Assembly: GCA_012033335.1 (NCBI GenBank)
Contig: JAAURB010000011.1
Span: 1-64,000, forward strand
Reading direction: 5' to 3'
Length of the DNA stretch: 64,000 nucleotides
Origin: Oscillatoriales cyanobacterium RM2_1_1
GTDB lineage: Bacteria; Cyanobacteriota; Cyanobacteriia; Cyanobacteriales; Microcoleaceae
The position numbers and the translations under genes were made by a program. Below, piece by piece: positions 18,344 through 51,373 of this stretch (its first letter is position 1; each line of letters starts with the position of its first letter). The notes under the pieces are model-generated. The model ran no database searches. It was not told the origin of the DNA and saw nothing but the letters and a program-made list of their open reading frames with translations.

Positions 18344-18892
18344 ATGAACGTTTTAAAGACCAACGGCAAGACTTTGATTGCTTTACTATTCTCTATGGTC
18401 TGGTGGAGTTCTACCCAGCCTGTTTTAGCTCAATTCCCCAGTACGATTGATCCGAAATGTAGAACCGCCTTTCGAATTGTTGCCACCCAAGAAGGGGAAC
18501 TGAATTTGCGAGATCAGCCCGACTATCCTAGTTTGAGCAGTGCTGTGATCAAGCGGATTCCCAATGGCACAGAGGTGGTGTTTAATATCAGCGATCGCAC
18601 TGGAGATTGGGCAGAGGTGAAGATCCCCGGAGGGCAAACGGGATGGGTGGCAGCGCGATATTTGAAGTACAGCCATCACGGAGCCACCGATTTCAATGGT
18701 CGGATGCGAATTAGAACCCTCGATGGCGGAGCCGTCAATCTCAGGGATCTGGACAATTCTCAAGCGGTAATTGGCACCCTTCCCAACAATGCCACGGTTG
18801 AGTTTCAACAACTGAGCGGCTACTATTCGATTGTTGCGACTCCGGATGGAAAGGTTGGCCAGGTTGATAACCGTTTCCTAGTCTGCAACTGA
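18344..18892 (+). CDS. Secreted SH3-domain protein
   Basis: The 182-residue protein has a cleavable signal peptide (positive N-terminus, hydrophobic LIALLFSMVWW, probable cleavage after VLAQ at ~30). Two bacterial SH3-like domains follow: the first around 45-110 (GELNLRDQPDYPS, GWVAARYLKY), the second around 118-180 (GAVNLRDLDNSQAV, GQVDNRFLVC). NLR-centred SH3b domains usually bind cell wall or protein ligands; a periplasmic wall-associated role is inferred. Two Cys (KC and VC) could form a disulfide joining the termini. The gene overlaps tail-to-tail by 15 nt with the fusion gene on the other strand. Confidence 0.88.
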   Translation: MNVLKTNGKTLIALLFSMVWWSSTQPVLAQFPSTIDPKCRTAFRIVATQEGELNLRDQPDYPSLSSAVIKRIPNGTEVVFNISDRTGDWAEVKIPGGQTGWVAARYLKYSHHGATDFNGRMRIRTLDGGAVNLRDLDNSQAVIGTLPNNATVEFQQLSGYYSIVATPDGKVGQVDNRFLVCN

Positions 18893-21788
18893 CTCTAACA
18901 CCTCCACGGTGCCCCGATAGCCATCTACCCGCACCCGTTGACCATCTTGAAGTTGTACCATGGCGTTGGGGACATTCATCACCGCCGGAATCCTGTACTC
19001 CCGAGCAATAATCGCTCCATGGGAGAGCTGTCCGCCAACTTCCGTGATGATCGCCTTTGCCGTTAACAACAGCGGAGCCCAACCGGCATCGGTGTATGGA
19101 ACTACCAGGATCGAGGGTTCAGGGTCTAGGGAGGTGGCCGCCAAACTGCGGCAGATTTTGACGGTTCCTTCTACACAGCCGACACTGGCGGGAATTCCCC
19201 TGAGCAGGGTTGCCGGACTTGAAAGCTGATCGGGTTGCAGGGTCGGCAGTAAATTGCCATAGACAACAGCGGGAATTTGACGTTGAGTATCCTGTTCAAA
19301 CTCTTGCCGACGCTGCTGAATTTTTTGCAGCAAGCTCTCAGGCAAAAAATCCGAGGATGCAGCCCGAATCCATTGCTGAATCTCGGAAAACTCCAAAAAG
19401 AAAATATCTCCAGGTTGCTGCAATAGGCCCTGATTCAAACCCTGGGTTTCAATAGTCAGAAATGTCCAGCGGAGATGGGCTAGAAGCTTGCCATAAATCT
19501 GGCCAATCTGTCCCTTGATTATTGTGCGTTGTTCACATTGCTGGAGCCGCCAGCGCCGCCAACCTTTGATTTGATTGCGATCGCATTTGGTAGGTTCCCA
19601 GGTGGGATTGTTCACCATTTTGAACAACATCTTTTGAAAGGTTTCCGGCTGTTCTTGCCAGGTTGGCACGGCAATATCTGTCCCGACCTCACTCAGATAG
19701 CCGTAAGTCGAAAGCCAAGTTTGAAACCGGGTTTGCAAGGTGTGGTTCTGCTGAAATTCCTGTTCTAATGCTGGGATTGGAACAGGATTGGGGACTCAAA
19801 ACTTTGCTGAAATTCATGGGCTAGGGCCTGCAAATCTTTCATTGATGCCACCTCAGGGGCCGTTTCCATCGGTAGCCAGGAATCTGGCACCCGGAAGATG
19901 GATCGGCGAATCGCCAATCCAATCGGCCCGAGAATATTGTAGTAAGTAATGGGCTTGAGCACGTTCTGAATCGTTTCGCAGCGGTGCAAAAGTTCAGCCA
20001 GGGAAAAGGAACTTAAATGGGGATGTTCGGCTTCAAGTCGCTCCAGTGTAGGGGAGAAAATACTCTGCGATCGCCCTCAAACTCCTTGACCAGACCTATT
20101 TCTCTACGAACCAGCCGCAGCAAACCCGGCAGGGCCATCACCGCTTTTTTCAACGGGGGTTTACCCATTTTTTGACCCCGCAGCAGGAACTCCAACCCCT
20201 GTTCTGGCAACCCCATCATCCGAAAAATTTCCCCCAGCAAACTGGCATTGAAATAGGCATGGGAACCCAGTAAGGTAGCCGTTTCAGTGAAGTCTAAGGG
20301 GGCTGCCAACTCGCCTAAAACCAGGGTAAAAATCTGTCCCCAAATCCCACAGGTTAAGGGGCGATTGATTGACCAAGTGAGGGGACGAATTGCCCCCGGA
20401 ATCACTTCCGCCGCAATGGTTCTAGTCCAGATTGGCCGCAGATTGGTAATCGGACGCGCTTGAAAAATCCATAGATGTTCACCATCCCATCCCCATTCAA
20501 TATCCTGGGGAATCCCGTGATAAAAAGCCTCGATTCTCCGGGCTTGCTCTACTAGTTCAACGAGTAAATTTGACGGAATCGTTGAGTCTTGCAAGGGATC
20601 CAGGCTGGCCGTCTGAGCCTCAACGGTGCTGATATCAATTTCCAAGTGAATCGGCGTTTGTTTTCCCCCCACTACCCCCTCTGCCCCCCCTGGCAAGGCT
20701 TCAATCACTATGGTAGCTGCCCCATCCAGGGGATTGCGACTGAATAGCACCCCAGCCATTTGACTTTCCAGGTAAGGCTGAATTAAAACGGCTATTCCCT
20801 CTCCGGCAATCTGACGCTGCTGACGATAGGCGATCGCGGCATCGCTCCAATAGGATTGACGACATTGGTGAACCGCCCCCACCAGATCAGTCGCCGTCGC
20901 CACTGGGCCAATGGTTTGATATTGTCCAGCGGCGGAATTGAGTTCACCATCTTCCTCCAAGGCGGATGAGCGTACAATCACCGGGAAATGGGATGGGGCG
21001 ATGGGAATCTGGACAAAAGCACGATTTTCCTGGGCGGCAGCCTCTTGATCGAGGGCGGGCAACACCCAACCAATCGGAATCCTAAATCCAGCCTGGTTTA
21101 ATTGACTCAAACAGGCTGCCTTCTTACCATAGATTTTGCTGTCCAATTCCTGGTCAAGGGTGACCAAACGATGTTGTTTCATATAGAGTTCCAGGTCATC
21201 TGCTTGATGAAGATTAATCAGAATCAATAAACCCGCCAATCCCATGGCAGCCAGAAGTTCCCAGGGAGAAAGCGGTAATTGCTGGGGCCATTGATGCCAG
21301 AACCAGATCCAAAATGGCAGACTAACACAAGCCCAGCGGACGGCCTGTCGCCGATCCGAATCAGCTTCTCGGGGAGACAGCCATAAACCCAGCCGCCAGA
21401 GGATGAAGCCCGTTAAACCCGTAAATATGATCACCGGAGGAGAATAAACCAGGATGCCCCAAGCCCCATTGGTGACGCCTCCACCCCGGCTGATCCAATA
21501 CCGCCCCGCCACCAAGGCGATCAAACCCAGGAGTGAACAGACAGGAACTTCCGGAAACCAGTAACGGGCCAGTAACACTGGGACAATCCCTCGACCAATC
21601 TCAATCAACACCGCCCCGATTCCCCCCTTAACTCCGGCATGGGTAAAGGCTGCCGAGACACTGATATTTCCCGTTCCTGACTGAGCCAAGTCCTGTTGAG
21701 TCAGGAGCTTAACAACATAGCGGGTCAGGGGTAATGCACCTAGACCAAGACAGCCCAGGACAAATAGACTAATTTCCAGGAGTAGCAT
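18878..21788 (-). pseudogene. PlsY-like/PEP-synthase-like fusion gene with two frameshifts
   Basis: Three consecutive minus-strand frames join into one ~970-residue protein. Part one (21788-20013) has a PlsY-like membrane acyltransferase region (SGTGNISVSAAF, GGIGAVLIEIGRG, ~residues 1-200). It then has a pyruvate-phosphate-dikinase-type ATP-grasp domain (GKKAACLSQLNQAG, VIVRSSALEEDGE, QARPITN). Continuation needs one extra base near the GGGG at 20051-20054 (reading LERLEAEHPHLSSFS), and again near 19790-19793 (reading PVPIPALEQEF). Part three ends with a PEP-utiliser mobile domain carrying the phosphohistidine motif GGQLSHGAIIAREYRIPAV. Both repairs are single-base C additions, so the gene may be intact in the cell. 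Role unknown; a phospholipid/PEP link is only suggested by the domains. Confidence 0.8.
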
Positions 21789-50249: not shown

Positions 50250-51373
50250 TTAACTAAAGTAACCCTCTAGAATCTCAGTAATCCGCTGGGCGGCATGACC
50301 ATCCCCAAAGGGATTAATTGCAGTAGCCATTCGCTGATAAGCCTCGGGGCTGTTCAGTAATTCAACGGCTGCGGTCACAATATCTGCCGTTTCAGTTCCC
50401 ACCAATTTTGCTGTTCCGGCGGTGACGGCTTCAGGCCGTTCGGTAGTTTGTCGCAGCACCAGAACGGGTTTGCCCAGGCTGGGGGCTTCTTCCTGCAAAC
50501 CCCCCGAATCCGTTAGCAGAAAATCAGCGGCAGCGATTGCCGCCACCAACTCAGCGTAATCCAGGGGTTCGGTGAGGAAAACCCGGGGATGATCACCTAA
50601 TAGGGACTTTAATGGCTCTCGTACGGTGGGATTACGATGTAAAGGCAGAAGTAAGGCCGTATCCCGACAGCGATCCAGAATTTCCAAGAACCCTTGAGCA
50701 ATATTTTTCAGGGGCTCTCCCCAATTTTCCCGGCGATGAACCGTTGAGAGCAGCAGACGATATCGTGACAAATCCAGACCGGGAATTTTCAGCTCCGGTT
50801 GCCCTTGGGCAACGGAAAGCAGGGCATCAATCACCGTATTCCCAGTGTGGTAAATTGTCCCTAGAACCCCTGAGAGTTTCAGATTTTCGACGGCTTGTAC
50901 CGTTGGGCAAAGTGAAGCTGACTGATTTGAGAGATCAACCGACGGTTGGCTTCCTCGGGATAGGGATTCAAGACGTCATCGGTGCGGAGCCCAGCTTCCA
51001 CATGGGCGATGGGAATTTTTTGGTAAAATGCAGCTAAAGCCGCTGCAAAAGCCGTGGTGGTGTCTCCCTGCACTAATACAACTTGGGGCTGAAGCTGTTG
51101 AAACAGGGATTCTAATCCCTGCAAACTCCGACAGGTAATATCCGTCAAGGTTTGTTTGGGCTGCATGATTTGCAGATCATGGCTGGCGGTAATGTTGAAC
51201 AACTGCATCACCTGTTCTACCATTTCTCGATGCTGTCCCGTCAGAATTACCTGAGTTGCAAATCGTGGGGCGTGTTGTAGCGCTTGAATCACAGGGGCAA
51301 GTTTGATGGCTTCGGGTCTTGTACCCAGGACAATGGCGGCACGAATCTGAGGTTTTATGGAGGAGTTTGACAT
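50250..51373 (-). pseudogene. wecB: UDP-N-acetylglucosamine 2-epimerase with one frameshift
   Basis: Two frames on the minus strand, 51373-50879 and 50834-50250, form one ~375-residue epimerase. The first has GTRPEAIKLAPV, GQH, QGDTTTAFA and HVEAGLRT; the second has STVHRREN, LPLHRNP, LTDSGGLQEEAP and the RQTTERPEA motif. Adding one C to the GGG run at 50905-50907 restores HFAPTVQAVENLKLSGV. All key residues are kept, so loss of function is doubtful; a sequencing undercall is likelier. It makes UDP-ManNAc for surface polysaccharide. Confidence 0.88.

Follow-up and report, generated by a model that had tools for sequence, protein, structure and literature searches.

A PlsY-like membrane domain fused to a rifampin-phosphotransferase-type dikinase: a putative membrane dikinase widespread in cyanobacteria

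A gene on the minus strand of the window (the whole stretch of 64,000 nucleotides analysed here) encodes, once its two frame breaks are bridged, a protein in which a PlsY-type membrane domain precedes an ATP-grasp domain and a phosphohistidine domain. This protein is rather probably a membrane-bound dikinase of the rifampin phosphotransferase (RPH) type that phosphorylates a lipophilic acceptor with the help of a repurposed PlsY fold. The sequence-only reading of this DNA had proposed a phosphotransfer step acting on a membrane acyl or phospholipid substrate, and phosphate transfer linked to some compound of the membrane is still the most sensible prediction. The single domains are already known and are seen by Pfam; what is new is their combination as a variant, no description of which was found in the open-licence PubMed Central literature.

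The window gene and its intact relatives

The gene is read in three pieces, which lie in successive minus-strand frames and together match a single unbroken protein of about 950-1050 aa. ORF A (20013..21788, minus strand, 591 aa) ends at the first frame break. When domain boundaries are carried over from the modelled homologue L034, which is intact, ORF A comprises the PlsY-fold membrane domain (aa ~1-205), the ATP-grasp domain (aa ~205-455) and the first part of the central acceptor domain. The middle piece, in the third frame (about 19768..20064, minus strand), continues the central acceptor domain and is joined to its neighbours by homology only, i.e., by a three-frame reading against the alignment of intact proteins. 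ORF B (18878..19783, minus strand; listed start codon at 19738, giving 286 aa, with an open frame back to 19783) completes the central domain and adds the C-terminal swivel phosphohistidine domain, which contains GGQLSHGAIIAREY. In ORF A, Pfam recognises G3P_acyltransf (PF02660; residues 16-191, E 5e-15) and PPDK_N (residues 267-450, E 4e-36); in ORF B, it recognises PEP-utilizers (residues 206-276, E 4e-24).

L034, a protein of 973 aa from another cyanobacterium, is 62% identical to ORF A over its residues 5-582 and 59% identical to ORF B over residues 676-970; the nearest protein to the window copy is 62% identical, and no close relative is in the sample. Because the third frame between ORF A and ORF B carries on the homology to intact relatives, the gene has two frame breaks, as the sequence-only reading had held with the correct coordinates. 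Its further claim that the pieces make up one protein was borne out by the intact L034 and by full-length copies across the class, and since such copies exist, the fusion is not a product of chance.

The window assembly consists of 178 contigs, and a Pfam scan of 30 window proteins revealed a second split conserved gene, for UDP-GlcNAc 2-epimerase (50253-51373, minus strand). Its two halves, which are among the proteins scanned, lie in two frames, with profile positions 1-129 at 50882-51373 and 154-347 at 50253-50834. All three breaks (two in the fusion gene and one in the epimerase gene) are near runs of four equal bases, which together with the second split gene fits small sequence errors without proving them. 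The frame breaks of the fusion gene may be sequence errors, and the organism itself probably has an unbroken gene that was disrupted in the assembly; the window copy could also be a recently dead gene.

Fold and active-site residues

L034 was modelled on the basis of 33 aligned proteins taken from genome contigs (mean pLDDT 73.8, pTM 0.52). Residues 3-206 adopt the seven-helix fold of PlsY (Z 16.2 to aaPlsY 5xj7, 184 of 193 residues, 3.5 A), the ATP-grasp part (from residue 205) matches pyruvate phosphate dikinase (1dik and 2dik; Z about 23, 2.3-2.4 A), and residues 864-971 match the swivel domain 2e28 (Z 18.1, 1.8 A). Over residues 205-971, the model matches RPH 5hv1 with Z 23.4 over 647 residues at an rmsd of 19 A, as would be seen when domains are placed differently; because this rmsd is so large, only the single-domain figures count as evidence of fold. 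Model confidence is low where the central domain is most conserved (pLDDT under 50 at 450-466, 503-517 and 531-544). Some homologues contain long insertions (up to 417 aa), which consist of low-complexity repeats, and a 178-residue N-terminal extension of L112 is probably due to a wrong start.

By sequence, the best PDB match is also RPH (E 3e-45). The order of parts in the fusion, i.e., ATP-grasp domain, helical central acceptor domain and C-terminal swivel domain with its histidine, is that of RPH (PDB 5fbs and 5hv1), as are the ATP-site residues; in contrast to RPH, the fusion has a membrane domain in front and differs in its acceptor-site residues. ATP-grasp and swivel domains are likewise shared with PEP synthase and pyruvate phosphate dikinase, which carry a PEP/pyruvate barrel at the chain end. 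However, the swivel domain ends the fusion protein (at residue 971 of 973, with nothing after it), whereas in these two enzymes the swivel histidine is placed mid-chain according to the available text of PMC4844700. The former label of the protein, 'PEP-synthase-like', is not supported, as the closest solved relative is rifampin phosphotransferase and the swivel domain is C-terminal. A bifunctional PlsY and phosphoenolpyruvate synthase, although suggested by the Pfam domain names and by sub-threshold NCBIfam matches to PEP synthase models, is extremely improbable: besides this domain order, no NCBIfam model is matched at its cut-off, and the same genome has both a separate PlsY and a far stronger PPDK_N protein (C167, 836 aa, E 3e-114).

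Residues were counted in 75 distinct full-length proteins, among which the family of the window is over-sampled. Mutation of the phosphohistidine in most homologues, which the sequence-only reading had named as evidence against itself, was not found: swivel His929 is kept in 72 of the 75 (Gln in L107, L108 and L116), and the corresponding histidine (His825 of RPH-Lm) is also present in ORF B. ATP-site residues are nearly invariant (Lys223 in 73/75, Arg273 and Glu432 in 75/75). When the fusions are aligned to a Streptomyces rph (residue numbers follow from this alignment only; L109 left out), the RPH phosphate-site residues, with roles taken, as for the ATP-site residues, from the available text of PMC4844700, are not kept: Gln337 is replaced by Glu462, Arg666 by Lys765 and Glu667 by Gly766. 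Since the acceptor phosphate site is changed, rifampin is not the expected substrate of the fusion.

The membrane half shares with PlsY (PDB 5xj5-5xj8) the fold and the GxGN loop; it differs in the residues of the active site. According to the available text of PMC5700162, PlsY binds glycerol-3-phosphate (G3P) through Ser35, Arg45, Lys104, Asn180 and His177, and its acyl-phosphate site includes His92 and Thr41. Among the fusions, the Ser35 position is Thr in 69/75, the Arg45 position is never Arg, being occupied by Tyr, Ile, Thr, Val or Ser or, in two proteins, by a gap, and the Lys104 position is Gly in 71/75 and Ala in 4/75; in all 75 proteins, Arg stands in place of His92. Loop 3 is about five residues shorter than in PlsY and lacks Lys104, and the C-terminal His177/Asn180 motif (motif 3), the position of which rests on a weak alignment, is absent when compared with canonical PlsY proteins. 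The usual motifs are intact in six canonical cyanobacterial PlsY proteins in the same alignment, and a separate canonical PlsY was found in 25 of the 25 relatives searched. The loss of the G3P clamp, together with this separate PlsY, makes the earlier acyltransferase reading of the domain very probably wrong. At the same time, a new set of residues is conserved, namely Glu63 (74/75), Arg96 (75/75), Gly104 (71/75), Thr106 (71/75), Asn107 (73/75), Trp110 (73/75) and Gly111 (74/75).

Some features of the PlsY loops persist: the GTGN loop (Thr39 69/75, Gly40 69/75, Asn41 72/75), a Ser at the Thr41 position in 57 proteins (Ala in 16, gap in two) and a loop 3 that is still glycine-rich. PlsY is known to take acyl-phosphate as its donor (available text of PMC5700162). 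Both points would suit a bifunctional machine, with a dikinase half that converts a free acid into acyl-phosphate (or produces some other energy-rich phosphate from it) and a PlsY half that acylates a target other than G3P. However, the invariant Arg in place of His92 and the shortened loop 3 without Lys104 argue against this arrangement, which appears quite unlikely. Moreover, we know of no RPH-type enzyme that makes acyl-phosphate.

Distribution and the unfused form

The fusion is widespread in cyanobacteria with larger genomes. When the intact 973-residue protein was searched against 386 genomes of the phylum (E 1e-30 or better), matches were obtained in 107, most of them approximately full length and a few in pieces. 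The fusion is present in 106 of the 186 sampled genomes of the window's class: 11/12 in the same family, 83/93 in other families of the order (this count takes in three genus g39 genomes with a degenerate copy) and 12/81 in other orders, so that most relatives of the window within its order do not, as the sequence-only reading had allowed for, lack the fusion. Carriers include Lyngbya aestuarii BL J, Arthrospira sp. PCC 9108, Microcoleus vaginatus HSN003 and Okeania hirsuta. The fusion was found in none of 200 genomes of the sister classes, where the one match (G127, protein L109) has no PlsY part. ORF A has some match in 97 of 98 relatives, several of these to other dikinases only. Family f41, which has small genomes, has no match among those listed; most small genomes are without the fusion, and a 2.2 Mb genome of the same order keeps it at full length (G439:C68:12882-15734).

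Gene context in cyanobacteria does not point to a substrate: among 39 loci compared, some neighbours are common to close relatives and none is common to, or conserved across, the families. Displacement of the small membrane kinase DgkA was also considered; PF01219 is present in 373 of the 386 phylum genomes, with and without the fusion, and simple replacement of DgkA is therefore not the answer.

The same partnership occurs as neighbouring genes. In an Anaerosomatales genome (G451, locus L075), which by its name we take to belong to Actinomycetota, a gene for a 203-residue PlsY-fold protein is directly followed by genes for a 798-residue dikinase and a ferrochelatase-like membrane protein. This dikinase is matched in 9 of 296 genomes of the class at E 1e-30, and a search for further Actinomycetota copies at E 1e-60 gave, among 396 genomes, one hit, the copy already known. 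In G451, G488, G518 and G556, one or two separate PlsY-fold genes are found no more than about 2 kb from the dikinase gene (there are two in G488; the one in G518 is on the opposite strand, and the one in G556 follows two transporter genes); because G451 and G488 are near-identical (96%), the four genomes amount to about three independent observations. The ferrochelatase-like neighbour is present in three of these genomes. This protein, which has N-terminal membrane helices, is encoded near the Actinomycetota PlsY-fold and dikinase genes at L128 7696-8949 and L132 5378-6685; it has no clear cyanobacterial relative, the matches in 2 of 20 genomes (E about 1e-4) being perhaps ordinary ferrochelatase.

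In a tree of 25 dikinases (four from Actinomycetota, 12 fusions and nine others; L123 left out), the Actinomycetota proteins and the cyanobacterial fusions form one clade (100/100), apart from the nine other RPH-type dikinases, among which RPH proper was not included; as the root was placed for drawing only, this is a split and not a rooted history. The 12 fusions alone also form a clade (100/100), which fits one fusion event. No PlsY-fold frame was found beside the nine other dikinases (L001, L109, L124-L127 and L144-L146) within flanks of 4 kb at most, and the same holds for the stretches examined around the plasmid dikinases that served as outgroups.

These findings bear on the possibility that the PlsY fold serves simply to anchor an ordinary dikinase with a soluble substrate at the membrane. 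The loss of the PlsY active-site residues is compatible with such a role, and RPH-type enzymes function without any membrane domain. However, the former active-site loops are strongly conserved with new residues (Arg96, Gly104, Thr106, Asn107, Trp110 and Gly111), beyond what an anchor needs, and PlsY-fold partners are also encoded by separate neighbouring genes. The occurrence of the partnership in both fused and unfused form, along with the new residues at the old PlsY site, argues for more than an anchor, and a pure anchoring role is unlikely.

Proposed reaction and divergent copies

In RPH, the swivel histidine relays phosphate from ATP to a small molecule that the central domain binds (available text of PMC4844700). 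HpeHI (PDB 9goj, a structure match) uses the same route to phosphorylate phenols, and similar ATP-grasp/swivel chemistry on a small-molecule hydroxyl is predicted for the fusion; unlike the fusion, HpeHI consists of two proteins, and no membrane domain is mentioned in the available text of PMC12167813. By analogy with these characterised relatives, ATP would phosphorylate the swivel histidine of the fusion (ATP to AMP and Pi), after which the swivel domain would travel to the central domain and phosphate would be transferred to the hydroxyl of a small acceptor. The PlsY fold, presumably no longer acylating glycerol-3-phosphate, might anchor the enzyme and bind or present a membrane-soluble acceptor, or it might hold the phosphorylated product. 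The reaction at the membrane could thus be phosphorylation of a lipid alcohol, a phenol or a similar compound; these roles of the membrane half would be new. A narrower formulation, by which the PlsY fold has lost its acyltransferase chemistry and become the membrane half of a dikinase for lipids or membrane-soluble alcohols (ATP to AMP and Pi), is tentative.

If a membrane dikinase of this kind exists, it would represent a lipid kinase chemistry of which no description was found, widespread in cyanobacteria and encoded by neighbouring genes in an Actinomycetota lineage. Proteins that read as 'acyltransferase' or 'PEP synthase' in approximately half of the sampled cyanobacterial genomes would then be one uncharacterised membrane dikinase, the acceptor of which would bring to light a so far unknown phosphorylation step in the membrane metabolism of cyanobacteria. 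Reuse of the PlsY fold beyond acyl transfer would also make PlsY annotation by Pfam alone unsafe.

Some copies have diverged further. In genus g39 (L107 6863-9604 and L108; G283 and G086), the swivel histidine is replaced by Gln and the ATP-grasp motif is eroded, with gene order conserved; taken with the same replacement in L116, this indicates that some lineages keep the protein without this chemistry. Six genomes of genus g95 have a second, short paralogue of about 590 aa (L110 6605-8377, minus strand, and L134-L139). In L134 and L135, the two of the six that were read, it has PlsY-fold, ATP-grasp and swivel parts, is without the central acceptor domain and has lost several ATP-grasp and PlsY motifs. 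The argument that the short paralogue proves the PlsY fold to be the acceptor site was considered and, because of these losses, dropped.

The same paralogue, and the fact that the swivel domain is common to enzyme I of the PTS, might suggest a phosphohistidine signalling or carrier protein, which would pass phosphate to another protein as in the PTS instead of acting as a small-molecule kinase. Nearly all copies nonetheless keep the large central acceptor domain, which resembles that of RPH, and with several motifs lost from the short paralogues read, such a function is very unlikely.

A different combination is encoded at L131 5166-6533 (plus strand), where a protein of 456 aa has a PlsY domain followed by an unassigned membrane domain that by eye resembles the dolichol/phytol-kinase type but has no Pfam match.
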